Positions 4,763 through 20,607 of a DNA stretch of 64,000 nucleotides are shown one piece after another (position 1 is the first letter of the stretch; each line of letters opens with the position of its first letter). Source of the DNA: Desulfomonilia bacterium (lineage in GTDB: Bacteria; Desulfobacterota; Desulfomonilia; UBA1062); assembly GCA_036567785.1 (NCBI GenBank), contig DATCTV010000043.1:62001-126000 (forward strand), written 5' to 3'. The position numbers were made by a program, and so were the translations under genes. The notes beneath the pieces were generated by a model, which had not been told where the DNA came from, did no database searches, and saw nothing but the letters and a program-made list of their open reading frames with translations.

Positions 4763-4778
4763 TGGCATGCAGGTTGCT
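4763..4778 (+). promoter_or_regulatory. Sigma-54 (RpoN) promoter of atpE
   Basis: TGGCAT, five bases, then TTGCT: the invariant GG (4764-4765) and GC (4776-4777) are exactly ten bases apart, as the -24/-12 consensus requires. Transcription would start near 4789, giving a leader of about 65 bases before the atpE ATG. Confidence 0.65.
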
Positions 4779-16759: not shown

Positions 16760-16776
16760 TGGCATCAGACTTGCTT
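16760..16776 (+). promoter_or_regulatory. Sigma-54 (RpoN) promoter of the motA operon
   Basis: TGGCAT-N5-TTGCTT with GG and GC exactly ten bases apart. The predicted start of transcription, near 16786, falls after the first in-frame ATG (16781), so translation must begin at the next ATG (16808), which has AGGCAGG 7-8 bases ahead and matches the normal start of MotA/PomA proteins. Sigma-54 control of flagellar genes is common in proteobacteria with polar flagella. Confidence 0.7.
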
Positions 16777-16807
16777 AACCATGAGTGAATCCAAGGCAGG
16801 TGTAAAT

Positions 16808-17587
16808 ATGGACCTTGCAACTATTATCGGACTTGTTGTCGCCCTGGGGATGATCCTCTATGGAATCCTCATGGGAAGTCCCTTGAGTCTGTTCTGGGAC
16901 CTGCCGAGTGCGCTTATAGTAATCGGTGGCACACTCGGAATTGTATTCATCAATTTCCCGTTGAAGGACATAGGCGGTGTTGTCGGTGTCATCAAAAATG
17001 CCTTCAAGGCATCGGCTTATGACTCGAAAGGCCTTATAACCACATTTGTAACATTTGCCACGAAGGCCAGACGCGAGGGAATTCTGGCGCTTGAGTCAGC
17101 TGCGGTCGACATAAAAGACCCTTTTCTCAAGCAGGGGCTGGAACTGGTCATAGACGGCCTCGAACCCCAGTCGATACGTGATATCCTCGAAAGCGAGATG
17201 GACAATCTGGTTATCAGACACAGGAAAGGCACGGATATTTTAAACTCAATTGCCACATATGCCCCTGCAATGGGAATGGTAGGGACCCTGATCGGACTTG
17301 TCCAGATGCTGCAGTCCATGAACGACCCGTCGAGCATCGGGCCGGCAATGGCCGTGGCCCTGATGACGACGTTTTACGGCGCCCTTATCGCCAACCTCTT
17401 CGCACTGCCAATGGCAGGGAAACTTTCCTCCCGCTCAAGCGAAGAAATGCTGATAAGGGGCATCATTGTTGAAGGTATCATGTCCATATCTGCAGGCGAC
17501 AATCCGAGAATAGTCGAAAGGAAGCTGCACTCGTATCTGGCGCCAAGGCTGAGGGAACGGGAGAAAGACAAATCCAGGGAAGAATGA
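16808..17587 (+). CDS. motA: Flagellar motor stator protein MotA/PomA
   Basis: Forms the five-subunit ring of the stator that turns ion flow into torque on FliG. From ATG 16808 the protein has 259 residues and opens MDLATIIGLVVALGMILYGI, the PomA-like first helix. Further hallmarks are the second helix SALIVIGGTLGIVFINFPL, the cytoplasmic loop with RREGILALE and, near the C-terminus, APAMGMVGTLIGLVQML and MAVALMTTFYGALIANLFALP, which make helices 3 and 4 around the ion path. It overlaps the next gene by four bases (ATGA). It is the first gene of motA-motB1-motB2-fliM-fliN. Confidence 0.95.
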   Translation: MDLATIIGLVVALGMILYGILMGSPLSLFWDLPSALIVIGGTLGIVFINFPLKDIGGVVGVIKNAFKASAYDSKGLITTFVTFATKARREGILALESAAVDIKDPFLKQGLELVIDGLEPQSIRDILESEMDNLVIRHRKGTDILNSIATYAPAMGMVGTLIGLVQMLQSMNDPSSIGPAMAVALMTTFYGALIANLFALPMAGKLSSRSSEEMLIRGIIVEGIMSISAGDNPRIVERKLHSYLAPRLREREKDKSREE

Positions 17588-18351
17588 TGAATCACAGCGC
17601 ACATAATCTATCTCAAAGAAGAAGATCGAATACTGTAATCATGACATCAATCAGTCTTCTTCTGATGAGCTTCTTTGTCGTGCTTGCATCGATATCCATA
17701 CCAGATGTCAGAAAAGCAAGGCTTGGTATCAGTTCTATAGCGGAAGGCTTCGGCATGGTACCGTCACAGACGATAGGCTTTAAGAGGATTTCCATGACCG
17801 AGGCCGACGTGCTTGATATAATAAGATTCAGAAAAGCCCTTCAGGCAGAAGGAATCATGATGGGCACTGGCGTCTATTCAACCCCTCTGGGAACAACCCT
17901 TGCCATAAAAGGGAGCCTGCTTTTCGACAAGGATTCCGCGGGCCTTAAATCCGATTACCTTGAAAAGATTGATGCCATAGCTTCACTCATCAAAGACATA
18001 CCGAACGAAATCATTATAACAGGTTTTACGGATTCCAGACCTGTCGAAACCGCATCATTCGGGTCAAACTGGACGCTCTCGGCGGCAAGGGCGATGGCTG
18101 TCATGAATTACCTCGCAGAAAAAGGCATAGATTATAAAAGAATGCGGGCTTACGGAATGGGTCCTGAACATCCGATATCGTCAAATTCAACCGAAGCAGG
18201 CAGGAATATAAATTCCCGGGTAGAGATCACCATAGCAGGAGGAACAAAGAGTCAGACTGATGTAAAGATGAAAGAACTCGATAAGGAAAAAATGAACCTG
18301 CCGCCGGTCTATCACTATAAAGGGTATGAAATACCCATCGAGGCAAACTGA
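17584..18351 (+). CDS. MotB-like protein 1: keeps the OmpA peptidoglycan site, lacks the ion-binding Asp
   Basis: 255 residues with one N-terminal membrane helix (residues about 17-38) and a C-terminal OmpA domain (about 100-218). In normal MotB the helix carries an essential Asp in a pattern like SD-(V/M)-(I/M)-TLL. Here the aligned stretch reads MTSISLLLMSFFVV, with Ser22 in place of Asp. The OmpA domain is intact: the two residues that hold the diaminopimelate carboxylate in OmpA are present as Asp150 (TGFTDSRP) and Arg169 (NWTLSAARA). It overlaps motA by four bases and motB2 by one base, so all three are made together. It probably anchors the stator but cannot carry ions itself. Confidence 0.88.
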   Translation: MMNHSAHNLSQRRRSNTVIMTSISLLLMSFFVVLASISIPDVRKARLGISSIAEGFGMVPSQTIGFKRISMTEADVLDIIRFRKALQAEGIMMGTGVYSTPLGTTLAIKGSLLFDKDSAGLKSDYLEKIDAIASLIKDIPNEIIITGFTDSRPVETASFGSNWTLSAARAMAVMNYLAEKGIDYKRMRAYGMGPEHPISSNSTEAGRNINSRVEITIAGGTKSQTDVKMKELDKEKMNLPPVYHYKGYEIPIEAN

Positions 18352-19055
18352 TGCACAGAGTAAGGAATGAAGAGACTTTTCTCAGCATATCCCCTCAGGA
18401 CAGCTGGAGGATTACATTTTCAGACGTAATCACTCTCCTTATGACCTTTTTTGTCATGATAGTGGCGATGAGCGGATTCAACGATAAAACTATAATTAAG
18501 ACGATCAGTCTAAACAAGGATAAGGATATCGTCATGAATCTCCATGAAAAGTTTCTTCCACCTGATGCAGTTATGCTGCAAGCAGCTAAATCAGCTTTTT
18601 CGGTTGATCTTCTTGATAAAATATTATCGTCATTTCCCCAGGACGAAGGAAGATTCTTTATTTCAGAAAGCGAGCGCGGAACGGTTTTAACCATATCAGA
18701 CCCTTTGGTATTTGAGCCGGAAGGGGCAAAACTCAGCAACACTGCATTGAAATACCTGCAGGCAATTGCAGCTTCACTGAAAGAGACTCAGGATTTTATT
18801 TCAATAGAGGGACATACCGCAAGATCAGGAAATGATGAAGCGGATTCGAAGCTAACGCTGCAGATGGCTGCTTCCGTCCTTGATTACTTTATTTACGAAT
18901 CCGGCATGAGCCCTACAAGATTCAGTATTGCAGGCTATGGCAGCAGAAGGCCTGCCATTTACAGGAACAAACAGGCAATGGAATCGCGTCTGGAAATAGT
19001 AATTCTTAAGGTAAGACCTTATACCGAGACAGCCGGTATGGCATCAATACAATAG
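18351..19055 (+). CDS. motB: MotB-like protein 2: has the ion-binding Asp, lacks the peptidoglycan-binding pair
   Basis: 234 residues. The N-terminal helix reads FSDVITLLMTFFVMI with Asp25 exactly where MotB needs it. The OmpA-like C-terminal half is recognisable (FEPEGAKLSNTALKYLQAIA, FSIAGYGSRRPAIYRN) but degenerate: the peptidoglycan Asp of GHTD is Ala157 (GHTARSG) and the partner Arg of LSxxR is Met172 (LTLQM). This is the mirror image of the gene before it. MotB normally works as a homodimer with both functions; here a heterodimer would restore a full set. The stop-start junction TGATG couples the two genes. Asp25 makes it the true motor partner of MotA. Confidence 0.88.
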   Translation: MHRVRNEETFLSISPQDSWRITFSDVITLLMTFFVMIVAMSGFNDKTIIKTISLNKDKDIVMNLHEKFLPPDAVMLQAAKSAFSVDLLDKILSSFPQDEGRFFISESERGTVLTISDPLVFEPEGAKLSNTALKYLQAIAASLKETQDFISIEGHTARSGNDEADSKLTLQMAASVLDYFIYESGMSPTRFSIAGYGSRRPAIYRNKQAMESRLEIVILKVRPYTETAGMASIQ

Positions 19056-19063
19056 AGGGTGGA

Positions 19064-20062
19064 ATGGGACAGATATTGACTCAGGAAGAGGTCGACGCCC
19101 TTTTAAGAGGCATGGAAGGCGGAGATATATCCCGGGAGAGAGCGGACAGCGGGAAACGTAACGAGGCATGGATCACCAGACCATATGATTTTGCATCGCA
19201 TGACAAGATCGTCCGGGGAAAACTGCCGCAGCTGGACGCTGTCAATGAAAGGTATTGCAGACTTTTCAGGGTAAGGCTTTCAAATATGCTCAGAAAGATG
19301 GGAACCATCTCCTATGCCTCTCTTGAAACGCTCAGTCTGGGCAACTTCATGCGCTCAGTTTCAGTACCCTCAAGCATCAACATAATACGCTCTGAAAAGT
19401 TCAATATCAGCGGGCTTGTAATACTTGAAACCAAACTCGTCATTTCCCTTATAGATCTTTTCTTCGGCGGAAAAGGCGGTGCAGGAAGCGGTTATAAAAT
19501 GGAAGGACGGGAATTCACTTCCATCGAGCAGAGCATGCTCGAAAAAGTGGCCGTAGGAGCGGTAAAGGATCTCAACGAGGCATTCAAACCTGTTGCGGAC
19601 CTCGATCTTGTATATGTAAGGAACGAGTCCAATCCTCAGTTTACAGGAATCCTCAAAGATAACGACACTGTAATAGTAGCCGAATTTGAAGCAGGTCTTG
19701 AACATGTCAGCGGTTCGGTCATGGTTTGCCTTCCTTATACGCTGATAGAGCTTATAAAACCGGGTTTCGGCGCAGGGGCGTCAGGTAGTCCATCATCATC
19801 CGCCGACAGAAAATGGACCGAACAATTCATGGGTCATCTCAACTCCGTACCGGTGGAAATATCTGTCAGACTGGGCAATTCCAGACTGACAGGGAGACAG
19901 ATTGCAAACCTCAAGAAAGGTGATGTCATAATGCTTGATAATTCACCCGATGGCGAAGTCGAAGTAAACGTGCAGGGTGAGACCAAATTTTATGGCAGGG
20001 CGGGAACTCTGGGGAAAAATTTGGCGGTTGAAATAATCAGGGCTTGTAAGGGGAAAGCATAA
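19064..20062 (+). CDS. fliM: Flagellar motor switch protein FliM
   Basis: Part of the cytoplasmic C-ring; binds CheY-P and sets the direction of rotation. 332 residues beginning with the diagnostic MGQILTQEEVDALLRGM (CheY-binding N-terminus), a CheC-like middle domain (SLETLSLGNFMRSVSVPSS, VISLIDLFFGGKGG) and a C-terminal SpoA/FliN-like domain (VPVEISVRLGNSRLTGRQIA, LKKGDVIMLD). It starts 8 bases after motB2 with a GGTGG-like site and runs into fliN after 14 bases. Confidence 0.96.
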   Translation: MGQILTQEEVDALLRGMEGGDISRERADSGKRNEAWITRPYDFASHDKIVRGKLPQLDAVNERYCRLFRVRLSNMLRKMGTISYASLETLSLGNFMRSVSVPSSINIIRSEKFNISGLVILETKLVISLIDLFFGGKGGAGSGYKMEGREFTSIEQSMLEKVAVGAVKDLNEAFKPVADLDLVYVRNESNPQFTGILKDNDTVIVAEFEAGLEHVSGSVMVCLPYTLIELIKPGFGAGASGSPSSSADRKWTEQFMGHLNSVPVEISVRLGNSRLTGRQIANLKKGDVIMLDNSPDGEVEVNVQGETKFYGRAGTLGKNLAVEIIRACKGKA

Positions 20063-20076
20063 TCCGGAGGAATATC

Positions 20077-20544
20077 ATGGAAGACGAAGACAGAATATTT
20101 GAGAGCGCGGGAAATGTTGACGAGGTCCAGTCATTGCTGTCGAGGGATCGGGCTGATGAACTGAGCTTCACTGAAATTGACAAGGAATCAGGTGATGCGC
20201 ACCGGATAAGAGAAAAGCTTGACGATACGCTTGAAGAGCCGAAATTCAGGGAACTCAAAAAGACATCCTTAGAAAAAGAGCGGCCTAGAGAGCTGGATTT
20301 CGTTCTGGATATACCCCTTGAAATTTCTGTTGAGATAGGCAGGACCCGGATGCTGATAGGTGATATGCTTAAGCTCGGGCAGGGTTCGGTGATTGAACTG
20401 AACAAGCTTTCCGGCGAACCGGTCGATATATTCGTAAACAGCAGGCTCATTGCACGCGGTGAGGTTCTCGTTTCAGGCGACAAATTCGGCGTAAGGGTAA
20501 TTGATATAATAAGCCCCACGGAAAGGGTGAAAAGACTCGGATAA
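20077..20544 (+). CDS. fliN: Flagellar motor switch protein FliN
   Basis: 155 residues. The C-terminal 80 residues are the SpoA domain of FliN: LDIPLEISVEIGRTRMLIGD, MLKLGQGSVIEL, LSGEPVDIFVNSRLIARGEV and FGVRVIDIISPTER. The first 70 residues are acidic, charged and without recognisable fold, as is common. FliN stacks under FliM in the C-ring. CCGGAGG lies 7 bases ahead of the ATG. Last gene of the motor operon. Confidence 0.95.
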   Translation: MEDEDRIFESAGNVDEVQSLLSRDRADELSFTEIDKESGDAHRIREKLDDTLEEPKFRELKKTSLEKERPRELDFVLDIPLEISVEIGRTRMLIGDMLKLGQGSVIELNKLSGEPVDIFVNSRLIARGEVLVSGDKFGVRVIDIISPTERVKRLG

Positions 20545-20607
20545 ACTCCTATAATATTTCAACTGCCGGCTTGTCCTGACCTGGTCTTTCGTCTATATTC
20601 TTTCTCC

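Follow-up and report, generated by a model that had tools for sequence, protein, structure and literature searches.

In flagellar motors MotB is a homodimer whose Asp carries ions and whose OmpA domain grips the cell wall, an Asp/Arg pair of this OmpA-like domain being responsible for peptidoglycan binding, and in models of the rotary motor two equivalent Asp residues alternate in the MotA ring. The 5:2 stator model describes this alternation of the two ion sites as a series of 36-degree steps, with one step per ion (PMC9389320). An operon with two motB genes (motA/motB1/motB2) is known from Aquifex aeolicus, whose cells are flagellated; the periplasmic regions of MotB1 and MotB2 are 23% identical and their N-terminal/transmembrane regions 97% identical, with one Gly/Ser difference (PMC4525482). 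In Myxococcus xanthus, one MotA-like and two MotB/TolR-like proteins (AglR/AglQ/AglS) act in non-flagellar gliding motility; both AglQ and AglS are described with a transmembrane Asp, and it is stated as unknown whether they form a heterodimer (PMC9389320). Partial flagellar systems have also been described. The Chlamydiaceae are non-flagellated and possess a shortened FliF fused to FliG, from which RBM3 (the SpoIIIAG-like domain) and some of the SctJ-like region have been lost and in which FliG is represented by its M region only, FlhA being kept (PMC4768692). Non-motile Buchnera has kept basal body and export genes and has lost motA, motB and fliC (PMC8109811).

The locus described here was found in a 64-kb stretch of DNA (the window, meaning the whole of the stretch analysed) on contig C43 of a 3.96-Mb draft genome of a Desulfomonilia bacterium (64 contigs, 97.0% complete, 1.6% contaminated). 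It consists of motA, two tandem motB genes (MotB-A and MotB-B), fliM and fliN, which all point the same way and lie between ppdK on the upstream side and mutS on the downstream side; motA overlaps MotB-A by 4 nt, and MotB-A overlaps MotB-B by 1 nt. The operon resembles that of A. aeolicus in having a pair of motB genes behind a single motA, but the window's pair has an Asp-less partner and the Aquifex pair has none. The resemblance to AglRQS is one of layout only, namely one MotA-like and two MotB-like subunits, and the window's genome also has a FliG/FliM/FliN rotor, for which there is no counterpart in the description of AglRQS. A short FliF-FliG fusion is shared with the Chlamydiaceae, whereas RBM3, the M and C regions of FliG and a stator are kept here and RBM1/RBM2 and FlhA are missing. 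Like Buchnera the genome has kept a partial flagellum, although as a mirror image, Buchnera having kept export and lost the motor. In the open-access literature, which misses most subscription journals, no account was found of an Asp-less tandem MotB, in agreement with the initial annotation, which knew of no such stator, and no description was found there of a stator and C-ring kept without export genes. A natural and ancient MotB pair with Asp in one subunit would test the need for both Asp residues and the number of ions per turn, and the genome keeps a whole torque module while it appears to have lost everything for building a filament.

The tandem MotB genes and their key residues

The start of motA was placed at 16808, and is probably there rather than at 16781, because of the position of the sigma-54 promoter and because relatives begin at the equivalent Met (Table 1). 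The NCBIfam models closest to MotA are those of sodium-type MotP/PomA, all scoring below cut-off.

Table 1. Positions in the window of the motor genes, key codons, promoter match and sites of absent genes
Feature	Position	Strand	Remarks
sigma-54 (-24/-12) promoter match	16760..16775	+	TGGCATCAGACTTGCT; 5' of motA; exact matches in 64 kb: 2 vs 0.15 expected
motA	16808..17587	+	probable start; ORF opens at 16781; MotA_ExbB 3.3e-32, MotA_N 4.7e-08
motB-A	17584..18351	+	MotB paralogue without Asp; peptidoglycan pair of the OmpA domain intact; short tail at the C terminus
Ser22 codon, MotB-A	17647..17649	+	ion-site Asp position; alignment column shared with Asp25 of MotB-B
Asp150 codon, MotB-A	18031..18033	+	peptidoglycan site, retained; column shared with Ala157 of MotB-B
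Arg169 codon, MotB-A	18088..18090	+	peptidoglycan site, retained; column shared with Met172 of MotB-B
motB-B	18351..19055	+	Asp-bearing MotB paralogue; substituted peptidoglycan pair
Asp25 codon, MotB-B	18423..18425	+	ion site
Ala157 codon, MotB-B	18819..18821	+	Asp in 18/18 relatives
Met172 codon, MotB-B	18864..18866	+	Arg in 18/18 relatives
gap MotB-B/fliM	19056..19063		8 nt; site of fliL in relatives such as L205
fliM	19064..20062	+	FliM 7.9e-48, FliMN_C 2.6e-21
fliN	20077..20544	+	FliMN_C 1.8e-24
junction fliN/mutS	20545..20607		site of fliO-fliP-fliQ-fliR in relatives; FliP just 3' of their fliN

The initial annotation had held that the key residues are divided between the two MotB proteins, and this was confirmed both at the individual codons and in a joint alignment: the transmembrane helix with the ion-binding Asp is present in MotB-B and absent from MotB-A, and the peptidoglycan-binding Asp/Arg pair is present in MotB-A and absent from the window's MotB-B. 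A compensating acidic residue was sought in the MotB-A helix outside the ion-site position and none was found. Both proteins have an OmpA domain (Pfam E-values of 1.7e-18 for MotB-A and 2.1e-14 for MotB-B), and MotB-A keeps a MotB-like helix and a plug-like segment; its MotB_plug score of 16.6 bits is below the cut-off of 24 bits and that of MotB-B (38.9 bits) above it. Predicted models of the two periplasmic domains match MotS/PomB (Z 18-25), the predicted fold of MotB-A matching the periplasmic domain of MotS with Z 25 and rmsd 1.4-1.9 and that of MotB-B still being OmpA-like (MotS Z 20, rmsd 2.5). The pair shares with the B subunits MotB, PomB and MotS a single N-terminal helix, a plug-like segment and an OmpA-like peptidoglycan domain, and differs from them in the missing ion-site Asp of MotB-A and the missing peptidoglycan pair of the window's MotB-B. 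The MotB-A proteins of the family also have a common C-terminal tail beyond the OmpA domain (roughly FxYKGYxFxLEEQ), which in the window is encoded by the last ~15 codons of 17584-18351.

Elsewhere in the genome, no other MotB_plug protein, no second flagellar MotA and no third full-length MotB, on whose absence the earlier reading depended, were found; the conserved A/B pair, in which one subunit bears Asp and the other does not, goes with a single MotA. Two further matches to the MotA/ExbB family lie away from the window locus; one sits in an open frame of 152 codons, and the other has an OmpA-domain gene at a distance of ~3 kb, an arrangement resembling TolQ-Pal. The remaining OmpA-domain proteins of the genome have N termini resembling those of lipoproteins or outer-membrane proteins.

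The tandem MotB pair was found in most members of the family searched. Because all 19 aligned family pairs, the window included, have Ser in MotB-A and Asp in MotB-B at the ion site, the Asp-less first subunit is a fixed family trait. The peptidoglycan Asp/Arg pair is kept by MotB-A in 19/19 of these pairs and by MotB-B in 18/19, both proteins carrying it in 18/18 relatives; only the window's MotB-B has lost both residues, and its substituted pair is private to this genome. What had been presented as one complementary loss is therefore two separate things, of which the missing Asp of MotB-A is conserved and the missing peptidoglycan pair of MotB-B is not, the latter loss being likely a consequence of the absence of a flagellum from the genome. 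In most family members the start of MotB-B overlaps the stop codon of MotB-A by its last base, which suggests coupled translation.

A survey for loci found with the MotB-A profile yielded 70 tandem pairs, of which one comes from a Sumerlaeota MAG and most come from MAGs of Desulfobacterota; these were picked by similarity to MotB-A with near-duplicates included, so that the counts are not estimates of prevalence. The second tandem gene has Asp in 70/70. The first has it in 8 and is without it in the other 62 (Ser 48, Ala 8, Thr 2, Gly 2, Cys 1, and one truncated), meaning that the co-occurrence of an Asp-less first and an Asp-bearing second gene, which the initial annotation had proposed to survey across the Desulfobacterota, is seen in 62 of the 70 loci. 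Judged from these sequences, this order is an ancient and conserved trait of Desulfobacterota tandem MotB operons. The MotB-A proteins form one group in the full-length tree (SH-aLRT 95), with two changes of Asp state needed, in support of one origin for the Asp-less lineage; the tree based on the OmpA domain only needs 10 such changes and does not resolve whether that lineage arose once. Distances among MotB-A and among MotB-B proteins correlate after allowing for MotA (partial Mantel r 0.52, 0/999 permutations), and this mirroring of the two trees is read as a sign of long co-inheritance and not of physical contact.

The peptidoglycan sites follow no such rule. Among the 62 Asp-less pairs both sites are intact in 35, only that of A is altered in 23, only that of B in 2, and both in 2. 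A conserved division of labour, with one wall anchor and one ion site, was accordingly rejected as a rule, 35/62 pairs having kept both peptidoglycan sites. In a large clade (L061-L081, L086) the peptidoglycan Arg of MotB-A has been lost, usually to Met, and MotB-B keeps Asp/Arg, the reverse of the window.

A few loci of the survey are unusual. The Sumerlaeota pair (L085) is Asp-less/Asp-bearing with peptidoglycan sites altered in both proteins. In L133 the first gene carries Asp and its helix almost matches that of its partner, yet it groups inside the MotB-A clade, a possible case of gene conversion. Both tandem MotBs have Asp in L134, L171, L181, L190 and L193, where no MotA was detected alongside; in L134, L190 and L193 the two genes have flgI on one side and further flagellar structural genes on the other. 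Relatives were also sought in viral contigs, where none were found.

Missing flagellar genes and the reduced rotor

No match to FlhA, FliP, Flagellin_N or the Flg_bbr_C proteins of rod, hook and junction was found in the window's genome, although FliP is present in 11/11 relatives and Flg_bbr_C proteins occur in 6-7 copies in 7/7 relatives tested. The genome is thus left with neither the type III export gate (FlhA, FliP) nor the rod, hook and filament proteins of a flagellum. The motA-fliN locus reflects this: relatives, whose genes here were named from position and sequence, have fliK-flgD-flgE 5' of motA, fliL between MotB-B and fliM, and fliOPQR 3' of fliN, all of which are absent from the window. 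The assignment of the two MotBs to a stator is consistent with the adjoining cognate MotA, but it is not a normal flagellar stator, since the genome is missing the genes for export, rod, hook and filament, a point that the initial annotation did not pick up.

All of the C-ring rotor genes (FliG, FliM and FliN) have been kept, FliG being present only as a 552-residue fusion without its N domain (G000:C37:304987-306642, corresponding to L203:12588-14243, minus strand). The N domain is the part of FliG that binds FliF, and would be unnecessary here because FliF is fused to FliG. The fusion carries YscJ_FliF_C, FliG_M and FliG_C regions and is in frame at the domain borders; when compared to relatives, it aligns with residues ~218-459 of FliF, the middle segment being shortened, and with FliG from residue ~109 to the end. 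Its FliG part, with ~62% identity to relatives, retains the EHPQ motif and the C-terminal torque-helix region. In Salmonella, RBM1/RBM2 of FliF form the M-ring housing the export gate and RBM3 is the S-ring domain (PMC8092281); in the fusion the RBM1/RBM2 part is missing and RBM3 is kept. Assembly and rotation are still possible with artificial FliF-FliG fusions in Salmonella (PMC4768692). Of the FliG matches listed for 395 phylum and 42 class genomes, which are the best matches only, none besides the fusion lies in a frame >400 aa.

Synteny with relatives indicates that flgB, flgC, fliE, fliH, fliI, fliJ and one sigma-54 regulator are gone from the fusion locus. A MotE-like protein, a sigma-54 activator and a TPR protein have been kept beside the fusion. 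The last two (L203:14313-17465) are shortened, the activator being without a receiver domain and the N terminus of the TPR protein being signal-like, and both have orthologues in the flagellar locus of relatives. A sigma-54 promoter was also looked for near FliF-FliG and rejected, one-mismatch matches being no commoner there than by chance.

A putative asymmetric stator and competing readings

On balance, we give an even chance to a lopsided MotA/MotB-A/MotB-B stator that drives a reduced rotor stripped of its flagellum. Such a stator would have five MotA subunits around one MotB-A and one MotB-B, with MotB-B as the source of the sole ion-binding Asp and MotB-A contributing an uncharged helix and this genome's sole intact peptidoglycan anchor; the rotor driven would be the FliF S-ring domain fused to FliG, together with FliM and FliN. 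A working motor in this genome would need A and B together, because the ion site is absent from A-A dimers and the customary anchor residues are absent from B-B dimers, and the simplest arrangement is probably a heterodimer of one MotB-A and one MotB-B per MotA ring. The proposal of one anchor and one ion path accordingly suits the window's genome, where only A and B jointly supply both, and does not extend to relatives, in which B is complete (18/18) or, in another clade, A has lost its Arg.

The genes may instead be a well-preserved relic of a flagellum lost fairly recently, in which motor genes are drifting and the peptidoglycan residues of MotB-B have decayed because no anchoring is needed. 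The loss of export, rod, hook and filament genes and the N-terminal truncation of the sigma-54 activator and TPR genes agree with this, as does the faster divergence of MotB-A, MotB-B and FliM in the window than in relatives (identity of 34-47% vs 52-73%), expected where constraint has been partly lost. However, it was the export and filament genes that were lost and the torque genes that were spared, and the least diverged proteins are those of torque transmission, MotA (median identity to family relatives of 70%) and FliG (62%), the MotBs and FliM being the most diverged. All six motor ORFs are without internal stops, against ~10.8 expected if the excess differences were neutral (P(0) ~2e-5), a rough estimate which treats the amino-acid excess over other family members as neutral and ignores indels. 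The in-frame borders of the FliF-FliG fusion also speak against drift, as does the sigma-54 promoter kept 5' of motA, an equivalent element lying ~50 nt 5' of motA in 18/18 relatives. A relic is therefore considered rather unlikely, and a working, altered motor is moderately favoured over decay.

It is less probable still that MotB-B homodimers form the working stator, with MotB-A in an accessory role outside their MotA ring, as a brake, an anchor or a factor in assembly. MotB-B of the 18 family relatives, with its Asp and intact Asp/Arg, could work as a homodimer, and a whole clade has lost the wall-binding Arg of MotB-A. Against this, B-B dimers of the window would be without the usual anchor residues, MotB-A has kept a plug-like segment and a helix like that of MotB, and the co-inheritance of A and B is strong. 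An assembly artefact, with the flagellar genes in unassembled sequence and the fusion misassembled, is very improbable even for a 64-contig draft that is 97% complete, as at both loci the sequence runs unbroken through the sites of loss on long contigs (ppdK|motA, MotB-B|fliM, fliN|mutS, TPR|FliF-FliG, FliG|MotE) and four families are all absent, one of them having 6-7 copies in relatives.

The asymmetric stator and its rotor, known in this reduced form from one draft genome, would no longer turn a flagellum, because genes of the export apparatus, rod, hook and filament were not found, and the motor probably serves some other purpose at the cell envelope, with the retained MotE-like and periplasmic TPR proteins perhaps taking part. 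With somewhat less confidence, and as a tentative view only, we picture a free-standing rotary machine, derived from the flagellar engine but lacking filament, hook, rod and export gate, in which a heterodimeric stator that has just one ion-binding Asp and one wall anchor drives a ring of the S-ring/FliG fusion with FliM and FliN. If only one of the B subunits carries the Asp, each ion would be expected to turn the motor by 72 degrees, so that 5 rather than 10 ions would be used per turn. As a minor observation, an exact sigma-54-type promoter motif is also present at 4763-4778 of the window, ~90 nt 5' of a small ORF resembling the ATP synthase c subunit.
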